64,000 nucleotides of DNA from a virus. Of the stretch, positions 2,131-63,971 are shown one piece after another. How positions within the stretch are numbered: the first letter of the stretch is position 1; every line of letters begins with the position of its first letter. A program made the position numbers and the translations under genes. Where the stretch lies: the IMG/VR virus record IMGVR_UViG_3300009488_000019, positions 1 through 64,000 of that record; one strand, given 5' to 3'. The notes beneath the pieces were generated by a model, which made no database searches, was not told the origin of the DNA, and saw only the letters and a program-made list of their open reading frames with translations.

Positions 2131-2514
2131 TTTGCGTTCCCCTCAGCAGCGGGAGTGGATTATCCTTCGGAAACAGCTTCTCCACTTCCAGTGAATCAGT
2201 TTCCTTTGAATAATCCAAACAGTCCCTTCTTCCCGCTTTGCCGGTAAACATACAATGTTTTGCACATATATGGACAATAAATTGCACGAAACCATACAAA
2301 GTTACCGGAATCGTGGTAAAAATAGGTGACACTTTAGTGGACATTATTAACAATCCTTGTATCCCGACTTGCAAGGGTGTTGTACTTATTCATACAATAT
2401 CCATTGTTTTTCAAAAAAAATATTTGCGGAAGTTTGCGTGTAACCCTATATAGTCATTCCAGATGTGGGCGATCGGTGAGCGCCGGGGCCGGGCCTCGAC
2501 AAGCCCCCCGTGGT

Positions 2515-2547
2515 CACATTGTAGCCACATCGTAGCCACATCGTAGC
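2515..2547. repeat. 11-bp tandem repeat (3 copies)
   Basis: Three adjacent 11-bp units: CACATTGTAGC followed by two exact CACATCGTAGC. The period is about one helical turn. It directly follows a very GC-rich block. Confidence 0.6.
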
Positions 2548-2848
2548 TGTTTGTTCCCGTACCTTTGTATTATCGCACGTACACATGTATATGGGATACA
2601 TATGTGCTACGCTCTAACGCTGCGTGATCATTGATGATACTCTCATGGCTGGAGGACATGGCGTGCCAACTCTATGCAGGACAACAGGGAATGAGCGCCT
2701 GAGATTTAATTTACCGCTCCGCTGCGCCTACTTTATATTGGAATAGCTGAAATCATAGGGGTGAATCAGAGCAAATCTCTTGCATTTTGCCCATAATCAC
2801 CATATCTATGTAGTTCACTACATAACCACATCAATGAGAGGCCGCTGA

Positions 2849-2891
2849 CTGCACGATCGCAACCTTACCCTTACTTGGGTATGGCAACGTT
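2849..2891 (+). repeat. 43-bp dispersed repeat, copy 1
   Basis: This copy aligns without gaps to two others in the same region, at about 70% identity to copy 2 (30 of 43). Conserved blocks are ACGATCG, CCCTTAC and TATGGCA. All three copies are on the same strand and lie 410-426 bp apart. Phage promoter, operator or structured RNA are all possible. Confidence 0.5.
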
Positions 2892-3077
2892 TGAGCGTGG
2901 GTATACATGTGCGCTGATGGATTCCCTGCTGCACTGGAGGCTTAGGCCGAACTCACTGGTAAAATGCCTCTTGTATAATAAGGTACGATTTAACCAGTTT
3001 TATCCTGCATGCTACGCATGGCCATAAAGACCGGGAGAACGGGGAGACGTGGGAGAGACGTGGGAATGGTTAACGAT

Positions 3078-3115
3078 TGGCCAGCCGTAGGCTGCGTGGT
3101 AACACCGGTTATCGC
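3078..3115 (+). repeat. Structured element shared with 10.63 kb, copy 1
   Basis: A 19-bp stretch (TGGCCAGCCGTAGGCTGCG) is identical to one at 10629-10647. It contains the hairpin CAGCC-GTA-GGCTG and is followed in both places by a second, similar stem around GGTAAC...GTTATC. Conservation of both stems in two gene-free regions suggests a functional RNA or DNA element. Confidence 0.5.
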
Positions 3116-3274
3116 TTGGCCGGTATTATCAACTTGAGGATACCAAACGCCAAAGCAGAGCTTTTATCACAGTGAGGGCCACAGCCACCAAATGGGCTGG
3201 AATGCAGGGATATTGATGGTTTTGACCATTATTGGGGAATCTGGGCTGATTTTATCCCCGCCAGATGCGTCAGG

Positions 3275-3317
3275 CTGGACGATCGGGCCTTGGCCCTTAC
3301 ACTGGTATGGCAGTGAT
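3275..3317 (+). repeat. 43-bp dispersed repeat, copy 2
   Basis: 84% identical (36 of 43) to copy 3 with no gaps. Blocks CTGGACGATCGG, TTGGCCCTT and TATGGCA are shared. This copy alone contains a perfect GGGCC-TT-GGCCC hairpin. Confidence 0.55.
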
Positions 3318-3358
3318 TTGACCTTAGTATGTCGATGATCTGACGACTTACCCGGTCA

Positions 3359-3380
3359 GAATGTCCGGTTGAATGTCCGG
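3359..3380. repeat. GAATGTCCGG direct repeat
   Basis: GAATGTCCGG occurs twice at a 12-bp period (3359-3368 and 3371-3380). It is a short tandem repeat of unknown role in the non-coding region. Confidence 0.4.
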
Positions 3381-3466
3381 GTAGAGGTTGTCTAAATTGG
3401 CCACGTTGCCCAAATGGACAACAGCAGGTATTTAGACAAGCTGGTGAGTTGATACCCACGGTGTTC

Positions 3467-3535
3467 TCATTAGCTTATCCTGTCGCACGTTCATTAGCTT
3501 ATTGTGTTCGTGTTCGCTATTCCCGAATCACGAAC
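3467..3535. repeat. Direct and inverted repeats
   Basis: TCATTAGCTTAT occurs at 3467-3478 and 3491-3502 (24-bp period). Just downstream GTTCGTG (3506-3512) is the inverse of CACGAAC (3529-3535). The cluster looks like a multi-site binding region. Confidence 0.45.
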
Positions 3536-3684
3536 GTGACATTGGCCTTAAACTTTGGGGCTTCTGAGGGGTCAAATGCAACGGGCACCAAACGGGCATA
3601 AGGTGCATTAAAGATACCGTTAACGGCTATAATGACCATTAAAGTAACATTTAAGCAATATTCGACCTCCTGAGAGGCTCACCA

Positions 3685-3727
3685 CTGGACGATCGGACGT
3701 TGGCCCTTGCCCTACTATGGCAATGAT
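3685..3727 (+). repeat. 43-bp dispersed repeat, copy 3
   Basis: Third gapless copy of the repeat that contains ACGATCG and TATGGCA. It lies about 90 bp upstream of the rightward sigma70-type promoter. Confidence 0.55.
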
Positions 3728-3815
3728 CACGCTTGTTTATTCTGGCATGATAAGAGCCTGTTTTGTCGCAATTCACATTTATATGCCACAATAGCAGTTT
3801 AAATGGCAGGAAGGG

Positions 3816-3844
3816 TTGACAGATGTATTTTTATGCATTAGATT
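3816..3844 (+). promoter_or_regulatory. Rightward sigma70-type promoter
   Basis: The -35 box TTGACA (3816-3821), an exact 17-bp spacer and the -10 box TAGATT (4 of 6 consensus, 3839-3844) face the early operon. The first gene starts about 700 bp downstream, giving a long untranslated leader that contains several possible hairpins. Confidence 0.6.
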
Positions 3845-4502
3845 ACAACAGGCGGGAGAGGTTAACGCCTACCTGACGACTCACAAATGAGCGCAGGTTC
3901 AAACCATACGATTCAAGATGTTGAACCGCTAAACTCTCACAATCATTGATGATCTGAGATTATTTCGGTCAGGGTTAATAATTATGAACCTTGGCCGATT
4001 GTTGTTTAAGCCTACAGCAACGTGGGTTTACAACGATTCAGATTTAATGAGGTTCACAAATGTGAACAATTGGAGGGTTTTTGACCCATAAAGATATACG
4101 TATTTGGGCCAAGAAATAAAACTTCAATTTTTCTTTGCCTACGGGAATGCGGCTCTACAAGGAATTAATCATTTTGTGGCCAAACTTGGCACGCAAGATG
4201 CATATACCTAATAATGCCTTCGGGTGGCACCCGGCGGCAACCGACTGAGAGAAATCAGGCGGGTCAGACCAAAACTTTCGGGAAATAAAAGCCTGACAGC
4301 GTAACCAACCGGGACTCAGACGAAATACCGAAAGCCACTAACCTGACGGAATACCAAACACTGCGAAGGACAATACGCAGAACTCGTCTATACAATGCAG
4401 ATTCAATGCATTGGGACGGTTCGGGCGGCAGCTAAACGGTTCCCGATTATTCCCCTACTGTAGATCAGCAAGGGTTGATGGGATGCGGTAAAGCGCAGTG
4501 AC

Positions 4503-8563: not shown

Positions 8564-8851
8564 ATGGAGGCTGAGATCAGGTCTTTGGAAACCACAGATG
8601 GATTATTCATTAACCTAAACGATGTTCTAAATATGTTAAACAAAGTCTACCGGACAACGTGTAACGTCACGACCTTAAAGGTTCTGGAGGCTTTGAGAAA
8701 CGGAGAGGTAATCAATGAGCAAAGTCATTTTAAATCCTACCAAAGCGCAGAGAGACGTAGTGGGCCGGGTTTGGTACAACTTGATCCTGCAAAGGCCATG
8801 CTATGGGCCAGTACGCAAAATAACAAGGGGAAAGAAAAAGGGTTGGTTTGA
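8564..8851 (+). CDS. Hypothetical protein with long 3' overlap
   Basis: 95 residues, with AGGAGG 8-9 nt before MEAEIRSLETTDG. The first ~50 residues look ordinary. The last ~45 overlap the next gene in another frame and look less protein-like (low-complexity, basic), so the native end may differ or a frameshift may join the two. No family recognised. Confidence 0.5.
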   Translation: MEAEIRSLETTDGLFINLNDVLNMLNKVYRTTCNVTTLKVLEALRNGEVINEQSHFKSYQSAERRSGPGLVQLDPAKAMLWASTQNNKGKEKGLV

Positions 8852-8939
8852 GGTTGCGGTGTTAGCCTGTTCAGAAGAGTATGGCATACACCTAAAAAGG
8901 AAAATCTTTAGTCCGAAAAACATTACCTTCATTGATTGA
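8715..8939 (+). CDS. Hypothetical small basic protein
   Basis: 74 residues from MSKVILNPTKAQRDVV with GGAGAGG upstream. It begins within the preceding gene, about 137 nt before that frame ends. A basic segment VRKITRGKKKGW may bind nucleic acid. It is the last protein gene before the RNA-rich region. Confidence 0.6.
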   Translation: MSKVILNPTKAQRDVVGRVWYNLILQRPCYGPVRKITRGKKKGWFEVAVLACSEEYGIHLKRKIFSPKNITFID

Positions 8940-9214
8940 ATTGAATGCATGACGTTGGGTAGCTCCCTGCAATGGCATGATATAACATGCAGCGTTGTGC
9001 ATTAACTCCAATTTATGTCGGTGCCCTGCCGGGAAGAGCGGCCACAGAGCGGGACGGTAGATATGTGATCCTTTGAGGTTATAATCTATTGTACCCGTGG
9101 ATGAACGCCTGTTCAGAACTGGACTACCGGGATGCTACAGGGACATGGTAACCTTATCATTAGATATGCGGGGAGGTTTGGCTGGAGTGGAAGTCTTAGC
9201 AGCGGAAGCGATCA
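8940..9214 (+). other. Gene-free, folded lead-in to the tRNA-like array
   Basis: No credible coding sequence. AATGCA-TG-ACG pairs with CGT-TG-TGCATT (8944 to 9003) around an inner GCATG/CATGC hairpin. A second GC-rich segment (9020-9060) carries CCACAGAGCGGGACGGTAG, reminiscent of the GAGCCACAGGCCGATGGTAG in the 8434-8524 RNA. Confidence 0.4.
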
Positions 9215-9309
9215 GCCGGGGATGCGGCCTGTCAGCCGATGTTCATCCTCTTACCGTTGAAGCGGATATCTATAGGGTAGCAGGTTCGATTCCTGCCACC
9301 GGCAAACCA
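9215..9309 (+). other. tRNA-like element 1, aberrant
   Basis: The 3' half is tRNA-like: T-stem GCAGG/CCTGC with loop TTCGATT (9280-9296), then CACCGGC, A and a nearby CCA. The 5' GCCGGGG (9215-9221) pairs with CACCGGC except for one G-A. A CGGC/GCCG arm follows. The anticodon region is long and irregular; a 7-nt loop ACCGTTG can be drawn but lacks U33. A degenerate or unusually folded tRNA is likely. Confidence 0.4.
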
Positions 9310-9314
9310 ATTTT

Positions 9315-9366
9315 GAGGGCTGTGCGGCTGGTGCTGCGGGGTTCGATTCCCAAATGGCCCTCACCA
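9315..9366 (+). other. tRNA-like element 2, no anticodon arm
   Basis: Only 52 nt including an encoded CCA. The acceptor stem GAGGGCT/GGCCCTC is fully paired (one G-T). A D-like arm GCGGC-TGGT-GCTGC and a T-arm with loop TTCGATT are present, but there is no room for an anticodon arm. It resembles a tRNA minihelix. It may be a deletion remnant, a processed RNA or a tRNA mimic. Confidence 0.45.
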
Positions 9367-9370
9367 ATTT

Positions 9371-9463
9371 AGCGGAGTGGTGGAAATTAAATACACAGCC
9401 CCGTATAAGGGGTCGTCCGGTTGATCGCCGGAATTGCGGGTGAAAACCCCGCCTCCGCAACCA
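9371..9463 (+). other. tRNA-like element 3, class II with Leu-like D-arm
   Basis: 93 nt with CCA. The stem GCGGAG/CTCCGC, a GTGGAAAT D-region like that of tRNA-Leu, a GC-rich anticodon stem around GTATAA(G), a long variable arm (TCCGG/CCGGA) and a perfect T-stem GCGGG/CCCGC are visible. The D-loop lacks GG and the T-loop is TGAAAAC rather than TTCRANY. The anticodon cannot be assigned safely (ATA if the loop is 7 nt). Confidence 0.45.
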
Positions 9464-9468
9464 CTTAT

Positions 9469-9653
9469 GGGTGCATAGATGGGTACCTATACAGAAATGA
9501 TCATCATGCGTTTACCGTGAAGGCCAATCCTTCCGCACCACGATTGGGAATACGAGCCGATGAACGGAGGCAGCGCATGCCTGTATAGGGAGAGGTCGAT
9601 ATAGTAAGTAGCGTTTTATGCAGCGAATGGAGGTTAGAATCCTCCTGCACCCT
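9469..9653 (+). other. tRNA-like element 4 with structured insertion
   Basis: The 5' GGGTGCA pairs perfectly with 3' TGCACCC, preceded by a T-stem GGAGG/CCTCC with loop TTAGAAT. The span is 184 nt, over 100 nt too long. The excess is a self-contained domain at 9486-9589 closed by CCTATACAG/CTGTATAGG, stacked on CATGCG/CGCATG, with CCAATC/GATTGG inside. Without it 80 nt remain, normal tRNA length. It is too small for a usual group I intron. Confidence 0.4.
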
Positions 9654-9663
9654 GCTCAATTTT

Positions 9664-9837
9664 ATCCGTACTGGAAAACAGCGGGTGACCGCAGGTAATG
9701 CTGCGTCTCGTCTGAAGGCTGATAACCGACTGAAGGTGAGAGCCTGTCAATGGCGTTAACTAAGCGGAGCCTCTGGATGCATACATACTCTGCCGGGGTG
9801 ATCGTTCAAGGTGGTTCGATTCCATCTGCGGGTGCCA
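9664..9837 (+). other. tRNA-like element 5, oversized
   Basis: The 3' end is tRNA-like: T-stem GGTGG/CCATC with loop TTCGATT, TGCGGGT, G and an encoded CCA. The best 5' partner is ATCCGTA at 9664 (7 pairs, two G-T), making a 174-nt unit, again about 100 nt oversize. The middle holds a GCGG/CCGC hairpin and other stems. The pairing partner is less certain than for element 4. Confidence 0.3.
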
Positions 9838-9845
9838 ATTTATGT

Positions 9846-9909
9846 GGGGGAGAAATGGTGAAGCAGGTAGCTCCTGTTCAACGGGTTCGATCCCCGACTC
9901 CCCCATCCA
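9846..9909 (+). other. tRNA-like element 6, D-arm missing
   Basis: The acceptor stem GGGGGAG/CTCCCCC is perfect, followed by A and TCCA. The T-arm is CGGG/CCCG with loop TTCGATC. Between the acceptor and an anticodon-like arm (AGCAG-GTAGCTC-CTGTT, giving AGC if real) only nine nucleotides replace the D-arm. Total about 60 nt. D-armless tRNAs are known from animal mitochondria but are unusual here. Confidence 0.4.
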
Positions 9910-10003
9910 AATCTCGGTAGCGTGCGGCCTGTCTGCCTATGACGGTGAAAAGTCGCAATATAAAATAGCAGAGGTTAAGCAAAAACTCGTCCGTCACATC
10001 TAA

Positions 10004-10073
10004 GCGTCAGGACAAGGTCAAGACAGGGGCTGCAAACCCCTGAACCCCGGTTCGATTCCGGGCTGGCGCTCCA
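10004..10073 (+). tRNA. tRNA-Cys (GCA), compact D-arm
   Basis: Acceptor GCGTCAG/CTGGCGC, anticodon stem AGGGG/CCCCT around CTGCAAA (anticodon GCA), T-arm CCCGG-TTCGATT-CCGGG, discriminator U and encoded CCA. U73 is typical of tRNA-Cys. The D-arm is shortened to about 14 nt. This is the most canonical tRNA of the cluster. The late genes include a 42-cysteine protein, which could raise Cys demand (inference). Confidence 0.8.
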
Positions 10074-10101: not shown

Positions 10102-10431
10102 ATGTATTCAGTCGCAGTGAGTTATACAGATTCAAGAGGCAATGACAAGGTCAGAGCGTTCACTTCAACCGCTGGTTCAAAGCACGAAGCGTTAGGTGAG
10201 GCCTTCATGCTCATGACCAAGGTTATCATTGGTGACTTTGTGGTCAAGGCTTGGGACATTGCAAATGACGTGGCCGCAATACTGGACGCTATTGAGGCTA
10301 ACGTTCGGGCCGGGAAGAAAATCGCAGCAATCAAAATCCACCGGGAAATGACCGGTGCTTCGCTGCGGGAGTCGAAAGACTTTGTGGATTCCCATTACTA
10401 TGATTGGCCGAAGAATCCGATCGATCTTTAA
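10102..10431 (+). CDS. Protein with ribosomal L7/L12 C-terminal-like domain
   Basis: 109 residues; AGGAG precedes MYSVAVSYTDSRG. Residues about 77-99 read KIAAIKIHREMTGASLRESK, very close to the L7/L12 C-terminal motif (K-x-AVIK-x-R-x-x-TGLGLKEAK). The N-terminal half is a separate beta-rich part. In L7/L12 this fold contacts translation factors. Phage proteins with the fold are known but poorly understood. It directly follows tRNA-Cys. Confidence 0.6.
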   Translation: MYSVAVSYTDSRGNDKVRAFTSTAGSKHEALGEAFMLMTKVIIGDFVVKAWDIANDVAAILDAIEANVRAGKKIAAIKIHREMTGASLRESKDFVDSHYYDWPKNPIDL

Positions 10432-10708
10432 ACAGGGTTTACCCGTTAACGTATTAGGTTCTCAGAGAAGGTAAGATTGGCCAGACCGGGATGCGTTAAC
10501 GGTACCATAAGAGGGTTTATCCGAAAAAAGATATCGTTCCTGCGGTATCTCCGAAGCGTGGTCTACGAATGCTGGCACTGAAGGTCGTATTCGCAATAGC
10601 CCGGATCAACCGGGCCGGGTACGGCCAGTGGCCAGCCGTAGGCTGCGGGATAAATCCTGTTATGGTAAATATTGGATCACAATAATTCAACTTCAATAGG
10701 AGGGCGAA
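10432..10708 (+). other. Gene-free region with hairpins
   Basis: No coding sequence is seen. It starts with TACCCGTTAACG pairing with CGTTAACGGTA about 70 nt later (one bulge), and holds a perfect GCCCGG-ATCAA-CCGGGC hairpin (10599-10615) and the element shared with 3.08 kb. CCGTTAACG also recurs in the hairpin near 23.95 kb. Confidence 0.5.
10629..10666 (+). repeat. Structured element shared with 3.08 kb, copy 2
   Basis: 19 bp are identical to 3078-3096, including CAGCC-GTA-GGCTG. The following stretch is diverged but again places GGATAA near TGTTATGG. It ends about 40 bp before the next gene. Confidence 0.5.
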
Positions 10709-12135: not shown

Positions 12136-12449
12136 TGAGATACTCCATTAAAGCAGCGGTCTTTCTGGCTGAAACGGATATGGCGCTTGCGAAGGTCATA
12201 TCCTACATCGTTTACAGCTTTGACCCCGAAACAAAAACGTTAGTTTCTCAACTGGTAAAGGAAGTCCGTATCGAACTGGACGAAACTGCCGGGGAGCATG
12301 GGGGCAAAACTCTCGTGGCCCGGCAAGAAACCGATAAAGAGGGTGCCAAAATAATGGGTAACGTGGACGCTTGTTTGTTCTTTGATCTGATGGGCGAATA
12401 CAATACTGTAGGGCATCTTCAAGATATACGGGAGGTATTTCATGACTGA
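12135..12449 (+). CDS. Hypothetical protein
   Basis: 104 residues (MRYSIKAAVFLAETDMALAK). Mixed alpha/beta, acidic, with no motif recognised. It is coupled by overlaps both upstream (TAATG) and downstream (8 nt into the RNA ligase gene), so it may be made in similar amounts to the ligase. Confidence 0.65.
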   Translation: MRYSIKAAVFLAETDMALAKVISYIVYSFDPETKTLVSQLVKEVRIELDETAGEHGGKTLVARQETDKEGAKIMGNVDACLFFDLMGEYNTVGHLQDIREVFHD

Positions 12450-13347
12450 GTTATGGAACTTTGAAAAGTTTGACAAGATACCCCGGCTACGGCGGGGGCT
12501 GGTGATCACCGAAAAGATTGACGGTACCAATGGTCAAGTTTCGATCATAGACCGCCGGGAAATGCCTGAGAAGTATCTTACACCTGACCCGGATTCCGGT
12601 TTGAATTTACCCTTCTTTAGCGTCTCACAGGACGGTGAGGACTACCTGATGCTGGCTGGCAGCCGTAACCGCTGGTTAACCAATGCAAAGCAGGGTGACA
12701 ACTATGGCTTTGGCCGCTGGGTATCGGACAACCGGGACGAACTATTGCAGATGGGTGTAGGCCGCCATTACGGTGAATGGTGGGGATCGGGTATACAGCG
12801 TGGTTATGGATTGCAGAAGGACGACAAACGCTTCTCACTTTTCAACGTTGCCCGATGGTCATGTGAAATCCCACAACGTACGCCACCGGCATGTGTTGGT
12901 GTTGTACCTATTCTAATGAGGTCTGAAAACTTTAGCATGGACTCCATTCAGATAGCTCTGGATGATCTGGCTATCAACGGGTCAACAGCGGCACCTACCT
13001 TCATGAAGCCAGAGGGCATAGTAATCTATATGACTCAGGCTCGTAGGCTGTTTAAGATTACCCTTGAAAATGATGGAGTGGCAAAGTCTCAGGTGAAAGG
13101 GAAAGCGCCAAATGGTGGACTGAAGACTTCCAGAGAGTGGGCCAAGGATTTTCCGTTAGTATCAATTCTCGATCATGACGGTTGGGATCGTACGAATTTT
13201 GAGTTCTCGTTCAACGAAGAACTGATAACTCGTGGAGAATTTCGGTTCCGGTTAAATCAATCTACACTTGGTGAAATAGCCCCGGCTGGCTCTGAGTCTG
13301 CGCCTACACTGGACGAAATCACTGCGATCATGAAGGAAGGTGACTGA
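12442..13347 (+). CDS. RNA ligase, T4 Rnl2-like
   Basis: 301 residues. The nucleotidyltransferase motif I is EKIDGTNG (lysine 25 would carry AMP), followed by a motif Ia-like GSRNRWLT, YGEWWG, motif III-like FSLFNVARW, motif IV PEGIVIY and motif V LFKIT. Rnl2-type ligases join RNA 3'-OH and 5'-phosphate ends and repair nicked RNA, for example tRNAs cut by host defence nucleases. It shares the early operon with RtcB and a metallophosphoesterase. GGGAGGT lies upstream of the ATG. Confidence 0.85.
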   Translation: MTELWNFEKFDKIPRLRRGLVITEKIDGTNGQVSIIDRREMPEKYLTPDPDSGLNLPFFSVSQDGEDYLMLAGSRNRWLTNAKQGDNYGFGRWVSDNRDELLQMGVGRHYGEWWGSGIQRGYGLQKDDKRFSLFNVARWSCEIPQRTPPACVGVVPILMRSENFSMDSIQIALDDLAINGSTAAPTFMKPEGIVIYMTQARRLFKITLENDGVAKSQVKGKAPNGGLKTSREWAKDFPLVSILDHDGWDRTNFEFSFNEELITRGEFRFRLNQSTLGEIAPAGSESAPTLDEITAIMKEGD

Positions 13348-16771: not shown

Positions 16772-16884
16772 TGGATACGTTAACTGTATACTGGTACGCC
16801 ATTAAGTATTGGGCTGGCGGCACTCCGTGGGAGAAAGCCTTTGAAACTGCTGTCAGCATTGTTAATGGCTGGAAGGAGGACTAA
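16771..16884 (+). CDS. Very small hypothetical protein
   Basis: 37 residues, aromatic-rich (YWYAIKYWAGGTPWEKAF). It is coupled to both neighbours through TAATG overlaps, with GGGAGG upstream. Function unknown. Confidence 0.5.
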   Translation: MDTLTVYWYAIKYWAGGTPWEKAFETAVSIVNGWKED

Positions 16885-17402
16885 TGTATTATTTTACGAG
16901 CGACCAACATTTCGATCACATCAATATCATTAAGCACTGCTACCGGCCTTTCAGGACGGTGGATGAAATGAATGAGAACATCATGAACGCTTGGAACCTG
17001 ACGGTTACAAAGGACGATGTTGTAGTCGTGGCCGGTGACATTTCAATGCTTCCATCGGCTGATCTAATTCACAAAAGGTTTTTATCTAAGCTGAACGGCA
17101 ATAAAGTTTTCCTTCGTGGGAACCATGATCACTGGATGAAGGAAAAACGCTACATCTACAATAAACGGATCGAAGGCGTGCATGTATCTGTCTGTCACTA
17201 TCCCATGCGTACGTGGCAGAACAGCAATCACGGAGCTTGGCAACTGCATGGCCACTCGCACGGAACGCTGGAGCCGTTCTACAACCAATTGGATATCGGG
17301 ATCGACAATGCTTTCAAAATCTTTGGGAGCTATCGACCATTCTCTTTTAATGAAGTCAAAGCAATCATGGAGGCGCAAGATGATCAAACAAACATTCTCT
17401 GA
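16884..17402 (+). CDS. Calcineurin-like metallophosphoesterase
   Basis: 172 residues carrying the full motif series: FTSDQHFDH (D-x-H), VVAGDIS (GD), LRGNHDHW (GNHD), VCHYPMRTW and LHGHSHG (GHxH). These residues bind two metal ions. Such enzymes hydrolyse phosphoesters, in some cases RNA 2',3'-cyclic or 3' phosphates. Its 3' end overlaps the RtcB gene by 23 nt, which favours a joint role in RNA end processing. Confidence 0.85.
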   Translation: MYYFTSDQHFDHINIIKHCYRPFRTVDEMNENIMNAWNLTVTKDDVVVVAGDISMLPSADLIHKRFLSKLNGNKVFLRGNHDHWMKEKRYIYNKRIEGVHVSVCHYPMRTWQNSNHGAWQLHGHSHGTLEPFYNQLDIGIDNAFKIFGSYRPFSFNEVKAIMEAQDDQTNIL

Positions 17403-18552
17403 TAAGCCGGTCAACATCTTTGGCATTGGCAATATCCAGCCAAAGGCACTGACGCAGTTAGAACAGTGTATGGAACCGGATTGGGTAATTCGAGCAGCAG
17501 CAATGGCCGATATGCATCTGGGCTACACTATGCCGATCGGTGGAGTGGTTCTAACCGATAAAGCCATGATCATACCTTCATGGGTTGGTTACGACATTGG
17601 CTGTGGCGTATCTGGTATCCGTACAACCTTTGATCCACGGGAGATACGGAGCAAGTCGCAAGAGATTTTCGACAACATCTATCGGATGGTACCGACCGGT
17701 AGGAATTGGAACCAGTATGAACCTGCTGGGTATACTGCGCATCTGGAGGGCATGCCAATGTCCTTTTGGATGGCTGATAATTATAAGGAAAAGAAAGCTG
17801 GCGCTCAGCTTGGTACGTTAGGTTCTGGAAACCATTTTATAGAAATTGGTATTGATATGTTCGATGCGGTTTGGATCATCGTACATTCGGGATCACGGAA
17901 CCTTGGGCATAACGTTGCCAGCCGCTACATTGCGGAGGCATGTGGTCATGCAACCGGTGTTTACAAGCAGAAAGAGGGTAGTCACCCTTTGATTGTTGGT
18001 ACGGAACCCGGCAATGACTACGTGACAGATATGAATTTTTGTTTGGAGTTTGCCCTATTAAATCGGAAGGTGATTTTGGATAGGGTGGAAACAGCCATTC
18101 AATCTGTCTCATGTGATGGAGGTATGACTGCGATCACATTAATCAATAAAAACCACAACAGTGCAGTGTTGGCCACGTATGGGTTTGGTGAAGAAACAGT
18201 ACAGGGTTGGCTGCACAGGAAGGGAGCAACTGATGCAAGCGAAGGCGTTAAAGGGATTATTCCGGGCAACATGCGGGACGGCAGCTATATTGTCACAGGA
18301 AGAGGCAACGTGGATAGTCTCTTTTCGGCATCTCATGGAGCAGGTCGAATTGGCTCACGCAGAGAAGCTAAAGAGGAGACAACTCTTCAAGCGTTTGCAG
18401 AGAGCATGGAGGGTATCACGGCACGAGTCTCACTTGCTACGCTGGACGAGAATCCTTTGGCATATAAAAACTTCGAGTCTGTCATGTCGGCGCAAGAAGA
18501 CTGTGTAAAAGTGATCGACCAAATCAAACCATTAATCAATATCAAAGCATAG
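17380..18552 (+). CDS. rtcB: RNA ligase RtcB
   Basis: 390 residues from MIKQTFSDKPVNIFG, with GGAGG upstream. RtcB joins RNA ends bearing 3'-phosphate (or 2',3'-cyclic phosphate) to 5'-OH ends using GTP and Mn. Recognised segments are MPIGGVV, VGYDIGCGVSG (metal cysteine), LGTLGSGNHFIEI, IVHSGSRNLGH, and WLHRKGAT, where the histidine is guanylylated. Length matches the family. It is the ligase of tRNA splicing in archaea and animals and of RNA repair in bacteria. The upstream phosphoesterase is co-translated with it. Confidence 0.92.
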   Translation: MIKQTFSDKPVNIFGIGNIQPKALTQLEQCMEPDWVIRAAAMADMHLGYTMPIGGVVLTDKAMIIPSWVGYDIGCGVSGIRTTFDPREIRSKSQEIFDNIYRMVPTGRNWNQYEPAGYTAHLEGMPMSFWMADNYKEKKAGAQLGTLGSGNHFIEIGIDMFDAVWIIVHSGSRNLGHNVASRYIAEACGHATGVYKQKEGSHPLIVGTEPGNDYVTDMNFCLEFALLNRKVILDRVETAIQSVSCDGGMTAITLINKNHNSAVLATYGFGEETVQGWLHRKGATDASEGVKGIIPGNMRDGSYIVTGRGNVDSLFSASHGAGRIGSRREAKEETTLQAFAESMEGITARVSLATLDENPLAYKNFESVMSAQEDCVKVIDQIKPLINIKA

Positions 18553-63893: not shown

Positions 63894-63971
63894 TGGAGGG
63901 CCGGGAAGGATTTGAACCTTCGACCCGTAGGTTAACAGCCTACTGCTCTGACCTGACTGAGCTACCGACCC
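63894..63971 (-). tRNA. tRNA-Asn (GTT)
   Basis: Fully canonical: acceptor GGGTCGG/CCGGCCC, D-arm GCTCAGTCAGGTCAGAGC, anticodon stem GTAGG/CCTAC around CTGTTAA (anticodon GTT), T-arm GAAGG-TTCAAAT-CCTTC, encoded CCA. The discriminator is U, whereas bacterial tRNA-Asn normally has G73. Confidence 0.9.

Follow-up and report, generated by a model that had tools for sequence, protein, structure and literature searches.

The record comprises 69,127 bases, of which bases 1-64000 were analysed here as one stretch (hereafter, the window). This record of about 69 kb was identified as a tailed phage by its proteins (DnaB, PolA, portal, terminase, and internal virion protein), and a tyrosine integrase gene is also present. 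The ends of the record overlap, as judged from the 83% identity between its first 498 and last 510 bases; this terminal overlap probably represents two strain alleles of one gene joined in one assembly. Two repeats were observed: a 43-nt element (CTGGACGATCGG...) in three copies (2849-2891, 3275-3317, and 3685-3727), within an ORF-poor 2-kb stretch (2500-4500), and a sequence (TGGCCAGCCGTAGGCTGCG...) in two copies 7.5 kb apart (86%; 3078-3112 and 10629-10663), both outside evident ORFs.

The array

The segment from 8941 to 10073 on the plus strand is non-coding and contains eight tRNA-like units, separated by short spacers of the form (N)CA-ATTT. It lies between two protein genes of the same strand, an overlapping, hand-read ORF at 8718-8940 (+) that stops just 5' of the array and a gene at 10102-10431 (+). 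The units, together with the putative RNA-repair genes and the start of a second tRNA cluster, are as follows.

8944-9010, plus strand: unit U0
9017-9309, plus strand: unit U1, 293 nt
9315-9366, plus strand: unit U2, 52 nt
9371-9463, plus strand: unit U3
9469-9658, plus strand: unit U4, 190 nt
9664-9837, plus strand: unit U5, 174 nt
9845-9909, plus strand: unit U6, 65 nt
9910-10003, plus strand: L7, a non-tRNA stretch of 94 nt
10004-10073, plus strand: unit U7, tRNA-Cys(GCA)
12442-13347, plus strand: RNA ligase (PF09414, 30.8 bits; phrog_548)
16884-17402, just upstream of the RtcB-type ligase: metallophosphoesterase ORF (PF00149, 24 bits)
17182-18552, plus strand: RtcB-type RNA ligase (PF01139, 280.7 bits)
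63894-63971, minus strand: tRNA-Asn, first member of a mostly ordinary cluster that reaches about position 65,991 of the record

Unit ends were placed by an encoded CCA followed by ATTT. The string CCAATTT occurs at 9008, 9307, 9364, and 9835, and TCAATTT at 9656; CCAATT spacers are also found between the tRNAs of the minus-strand cluster. An earlier reading made from the sequence alone (hereafter, the sequence-only reading) had counted seven T-arm-like 3' halves, five of them with TTCGATT/C loops. All seven were recovered within 9280-10069, with the five loops at 9285, 9342, 9815, 9886, and 10051 and the other two reading TTAGAAT (9634) and TGAAAAC (9441). Exact matches to GGTTCRANYCC within the 64-kb window are restricted to five plus-strand sites in the array and one in the minus-strand tRNA-Asn. 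Encoded CCA, reported for several units, was found in six of the seven T-arm units (U4 ends in TCA instead) and in seven of eight once U0 is counted.

The same reading had placed six aberrant units ahead of a normal tRNA-Cys and started the array at 9215. Aberrant units do precede the tRNA-Cys, but the array is larger, since it includes the additional unit U0 (8944-9010), which has a CCA-ATTT end and a 13-bp stem. The start at 9215 was not upheld: U1 most likely begins at 9017, with 9215 as an alternative whose acceptor partner carries one mismatch. A 7/7 acceptor partner would fall 4-9 nt past the preceding (N)CA by chance with P = 0.002 for U1, 0.0014 for U4, 0.018 for U5, and 0.0002 for U6. 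Multiplying these P values gives a joint chance of about 1e-11 for the four units and about 5e-8 for the three long ones alone (U1, U4, and U5), figures which assume independence and boundaries fixed prior to the search.

Structure of the individual units

In U1, the acceptor GTCGGTG/CACCGGC (7/7) is combined with the T-arm GCAGG-TTCGATT-CCTGC and the tail AAACCA. Within 320 nt upstream, the only 7/7 partner of CACCGGC (9297-9303) is GTCGGTG (9017-9023), whose first base lies 7 nt past the CCA at a CCA-ATTTAT boundary, whereas the shorter form (9215-9309) pairs at six of seven acceptor positions. The start at 9017 is therefore favoured on the basis of its perfect acceptor and the tight packing of the units. 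The two units described as about 180 nt long were confirmed as U4 and U5. U4 has a fully Watson-Crick acceptor (GGGTGCA/TGCACCC, 7/7), whose 3' strand has its sole 7/7 partner within 320 nt at the unit boundary, the T-arm GGAGG-TTAGAAT-CCTCC, and the tail TGCTCA. Its D-loop sequence GGGTA is broken by a domain closed by a perfect 9-bp stem (CCTATACAG/CTGTATAGG); without this insert it would read GGGTA-GAG, like a usual D-loop. An anticodon-like arm (GTAGC-GTTTTAT-GCAGC; UUU, Lys) with four of five pairs lies 5' of the T-arm. The acceptor of U5, ATCCGTA/TGCGGGT (7/7, two of them GU), starts 6 nt after the TCA of U4 and has one other, weaker candidate partner within 320 nt; its T-arm is GGTGG-TTCGATT-CCATC, followed by GCCA.

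Unconstrained minimum free energy folds recovered the acceptor and T-arm of U1 and the acceptor, a 3-bp D-stem, the insert stem, and the T-arm of U4; in U5 the acceptor was kept and the T-arm was not. No anticodon arm could be securely placed in U1 or U5. The inserts lie between perfect 7-bp acceptor strands and do not derive from other parts of the window. Since the three units are no more stable than shuffled sequences (z of -1.1 for U1, -0.8 for U4, and +0.26 for U5), nothing in these values shows selection on the inserts themselves. Introns were also considered as their identity: no Rfam intron family was among the matches up to E = 10, which speaks against a group I intron, and the intron mode of ARAGORN reported no intron-containing tRNA in the array.

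The unit said to lack an anticodon arm was confirmed as U2, which consists of an acceptor (GAGGGCT/GGCCCTC, up to 9 bp), a short hairpin, a 3-bp T-stem with the loop TTCGATT, and ACCA (z -2.2). The class II unit with a degenerate T-loop corresponds to U3, the most significantly stable of all units (z -2.97). Its acceptor has six of seven pairs (A1.A72), the D-stem 3/3, and the T-stem 5/5 with the loop TGAAAAC, and it further carries the hairpin GCCCC-GTATAA-GGGGT, the variable arm TCCGG/CCGGA, and ACCA. By position, all four elbow bases (G18, G19, T55, and C56) are changed, while 24 of 25 stem pairs are intact. The unit reported to lack a D-arm is U6; this reading is possible, but its D-loop-like GGTA motif also allows a missing anticodon arm, as in U2. 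Its single internal arm can accordingly be drawn either as AGC-AGGTA-GCT, a D-arm, or as AGCAG-GTAGCTC-CTGTT, an anticodon arm showing AGC, next to an 8-bp acceptor (TGGGGGAG/CTCCCCCA), T73 plus CCA, and the T-stem CGGG/CCCG with the loop TTCGATC (z -2.3).

The stem of U0 (AATGCATGACGTT/AGCGTTGTGCATT) accompanies the hairpin GCATG-ATATAA-CATGC, a D-loop-like GTTGGGTAG, and a 3' TCCA followed by ATTTAT (minimum free energy -23.5 kcal/mol, z -2.2); a convincing T-arm was not found in it. Hairpin loops of 6 nt are common to U0 (ATATAA) and U3 (GTATAA). Between U6 and U7, L7 has no tRNA fold (z +0.6) and contains TGCGGCCTGTCTGCCTATG, which repeats positions 9223-9241 of U1 at 89%. Finally, U7 has a weak D-arm and a TCCA end.

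Detection by standard programs and related loci

The sequence-only reading had described the tRNA-Cys as the only unit that folds normally. By the usual thresholds it alone passed the gathering cutoff of the Rfam tRNA model RF00005 (33.4 bits versus 29), with U0-U6 below it, and at normal settings ARAGORN called just U3, as tRNA-Tyr(ata). Six of the eight units thus escape both programs. A 7-bp acceptor and a 5-bp T stem with 3' CCA are largely retained in U1-U7 (48/49 acceptor and 32/35 T-stem positions paired, 80/84 in total; CCA in six of seven), with T stems shorter than 5 bp in U2 and U6 and none in U0. By contrast, a 5-bp anticodon stem with a 7-nt loop and U33 is secure only in U7, and the anticodon half is abnormal in every other unit. 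The Rfam scan also returned weak matches below the cutoffs, namely mascRNA-menRNA for U2 (19.1 bits, E 3.1) and tmRNA for U6 (15.8 bits, E 0.0024). A tmRNA reading of U6 was rejected, given a cutoff of 47 bits and no tmRNA report from ARAGORN; no tag reading frame was found by eye or by ARAGORN. Relaxed ARAGORN calls, among them a Val(TAC) nested at 9055-9130 and, in U4, a Lys(TTT) of normal length, were set aside because of obvious false hits on both strands alongside them.

The minus-strand cluster (63.9-66.0 kb of the record) holds 16 tRNAs. Twelve were called by ARAGORN (Asn, Ile, Ser-GCT, Leu, His, Glu, Gln, Pro, Thr, Ala, Asp, and Gly) and four were read by hand, with their acceptor and T stems checked (Trp-CCA, Met-CAT, Tyr-GTA, and Ser-TGA). 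If the hand-read tRNAs are right, no tRNA for Arg, Cys, Lys, Phe, or Val appears to be present in the cluster. Some of its T-loops also depart from TTCRANY (Met AGCATTA, His TGCGAAT, Tyr TGCAAAT, and Gln ATCGACA), and its tRNA-Met shows A1.A72 and a D-loop with no evident GG.

The closest near-complete relative (G050, 67 kb) has a portal protein 57% identical and is collinear with the window for a large part of its early and structural genes. Its tRNAs form a single normal minus-strand cluster (62-66 kb), which apparently provides for all 20 amino acids when hand-read Pro, His, and Trp are counted and whose tRNA-Val has a T-arm that U5 matches. From the first 60 kb of this genome ARAGORN reported no tRNAs, and no early array was found there. 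In the same relative (locus L137, 2702-2799) we observed a 98-nt tRNA-like unit that has GGTTGATCGCCGG in common with U3 (9419-9431). A further genome, G042, belongs to the same species across the minus-strand cluster (99.9%), and its record lacks the early region. No homologous array was detected by DNA matches in phage records, by an exact 28-mer, or by searches with nearby early proteins or the polymerase; the portal search gave relatives, none of them carrying the array, and GTDB contigs gave none.

All fetched loci were also covered by a descriptor scan for tRNA-type 3' ends, which returned 107, 81 of them with a partner at normal length. No further mini unit was among the 107, and one convincing long unit was, in a distant phage (L058, IMGVR_UViG_3300032277_000033, 179-304). 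This 126-nt unit, missed by ARAGORN, is followed 70 nt downstream by an RNA ligase gene and has the acceptor GCGGGAG/CTCCCGC (7/7), a 5/5 T-arm, ACCA, and about 50 nt inserted ahead of a normal-looking D-loop (GGTTGGTA). At five other phage RNA-ligase loci (L005, L008, L035, L043, and L063), ARAGORN made a single call no more than about 650 nt from where the ligase begins; the call at L005 (Arg) looks spurious, and the remaining four are ordinary tRNAs.

Origin and possible roles of the array

What phage tRNAs do is under debate, and recent studies tie them to escape from tRNA-cutting defences. Our leading explanation, which we hold tentatively, is that the array units derive from phage tRNAs and may be kept mainly for their acceptor stem, T-arm, and CCA, acting as decoys or damage-resistant tRNAs. 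The array would be expressed as a tRNA-type multi-unit transcript, from which host tRNA-processing enzymes would release CCA-ended tRNA-like RNAs. These RNAs could compete for or resist host enzymes that act on tRNAs, be they anticodon nucleases or attackers of the 3' end or the elbow, while the phage RtcB and RNA ligase would repair the real tRNAs. The decoy step is one that we infer, and it fits the presence of both ligases in the same phage; a minority of units (Cys, possibly Lys) may still decode. In favour of this explanation we count the near-perfect acceptor and T stems with CCA in seven of eight units, against anticodon and D halves that are lost, shrunken, or interrupted; the placement of the long-unit partner strands exactly at unit boundaries; the unconstrained folds of U1 and U4; the elbow loss of U3 with its stem pairs intact; and the folding of U2 and U6 better than shuffles. 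The RtcB, RNA ligase, and phosphoesterase genes, and the L058 unit near an RNA ligase, point the same way. Against it we count the inserts of U1, U4, and U5, which fold no better than shuffles, and the failure to find a relative with the array. A narrower version, in which the array is a dedicated non-decoding operon of mimics (CCA-ended, anticodon-less minis and D-arm-expanded giants) that absorbs or survives host tRNA-attacking enzymes, we consider unlikely.

The sequence-only reading had allowed for either a decaying cluster or functional mimics. The evidence speaks against long decay, because acceptor stems, T stems, and CCA remain intact and the changes have fallen on loops and anticodon arms. 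In neutral simulations, which are rough in that the register was fitted and 12 positions were hand-chosen, 80 of 84 pairs were likely at 3-5% substitution, had P = 0.001 at 10%, and were never seen at 20%. The loss of four of the 12 near-universal positions in U3, likewise a rough count, corresponds to a divergence of roughly 17% or more (flat prior), at which 24 of 25 pairs would be very unlikely. The cluster may have been rearranged recently and have undergone little substitution since, and decay of this kind, in which indels scrambled an ordinary tRNA operon whose stems have yet to erode, is nearly as likely as the decoy explanation. It would account for every unit being broken differently, for inserts no more structured than shuffles, for L7 without a fold, for the T-stem erosion in U2 and U6, and for the single normal cluster of G050 with no early array; on the other hand, the retained pairs, the CCA ends, the changed loops with intact stems of U3, and the tight spacing between units all argue against it. 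An assembly or sequencing error seems unlikely as the origin of the array.

It is rather improbable that the units are working, non-canonical tRNAs that supply isoacceptors absent from the minus-strand cluster, with D-arm inserts tolerated or removed (e.g., cut out, with the phage ligases rejoining the ends). U7 (Cys) and U4 (Lys, UUU) do match two of the five missing amino acids, which is weak; the apparent full set in G050, the Val-like T-arm of U5, the usual-looking D-loop of U4 without its insert, and the RtcB and RNA ligase are in line with decoding. However, U2 has no anticodon arm, U6 has no complete cloverleaf, U1 and U5 have no secure anticodon arm, and the ARAGORN intron mode returned nothing. 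Least probable is that the units serve to mark processing sites or to protect the 3' ends of early mRNAs and are not products themselves. Their position between same-strand protein genes would suit this, and tRNA-like tops suffice for tRNA-processing enzymes; nevertheless, eight tandem units exceed what punctuation needs and no other gene borders within the window carry such units. An array with an intact acceptor/T half and a lost decoding half would split the two roles of phage tRNAs and open the decoy idea to direct tests, and it would show that standard tRNA finders overlook a class of tRNA-like RNAs (six of eight units here).

Among known RNAs, the tRNA-like domain of tmRNA (RF00023) and mascRNA (RF01684) resemble the array units in having an acceptor and T-arm but either no anticodon arm or something else in its place, and they are the families weakly matched by U6 and U2; however, those scores are far under the gathering cutoffs and no tag frame was found in the array. 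Non-canonical tRNAs (tRNA-Sec, allo-tRNAs, and armless mitochondrial tRNAs, reviewed in PMC7609411, where the word "phage" does not occur) are similar in arm loss and in acceptor/T lengths, 8/4-like in U6 and 9/3-like in U2. The missing-arm tRNAs of that review are mitochondrial and lack the D- or T-arm, whereas in the array it is the anticodon arm that is lost. An effector that cuts tRNA tails is on record (PMC12851939), and phage tRNAs that evade tRNA-targeting defences have been documented (van den Berg et al. 2023, PMC10264068; PMC11555353). These defence-evading clusters are likewise phage tRNA arrays, some with RNA-repair genes, and have altered anticodon regions. Nevertheless, their tRNAs keep the cloverleaf and carry substitutions in the anticodon loop, whereas in the units described here the anticodon arm is missing or inserts of 100-200 nt are present (PMC10264068, PMC11555353).
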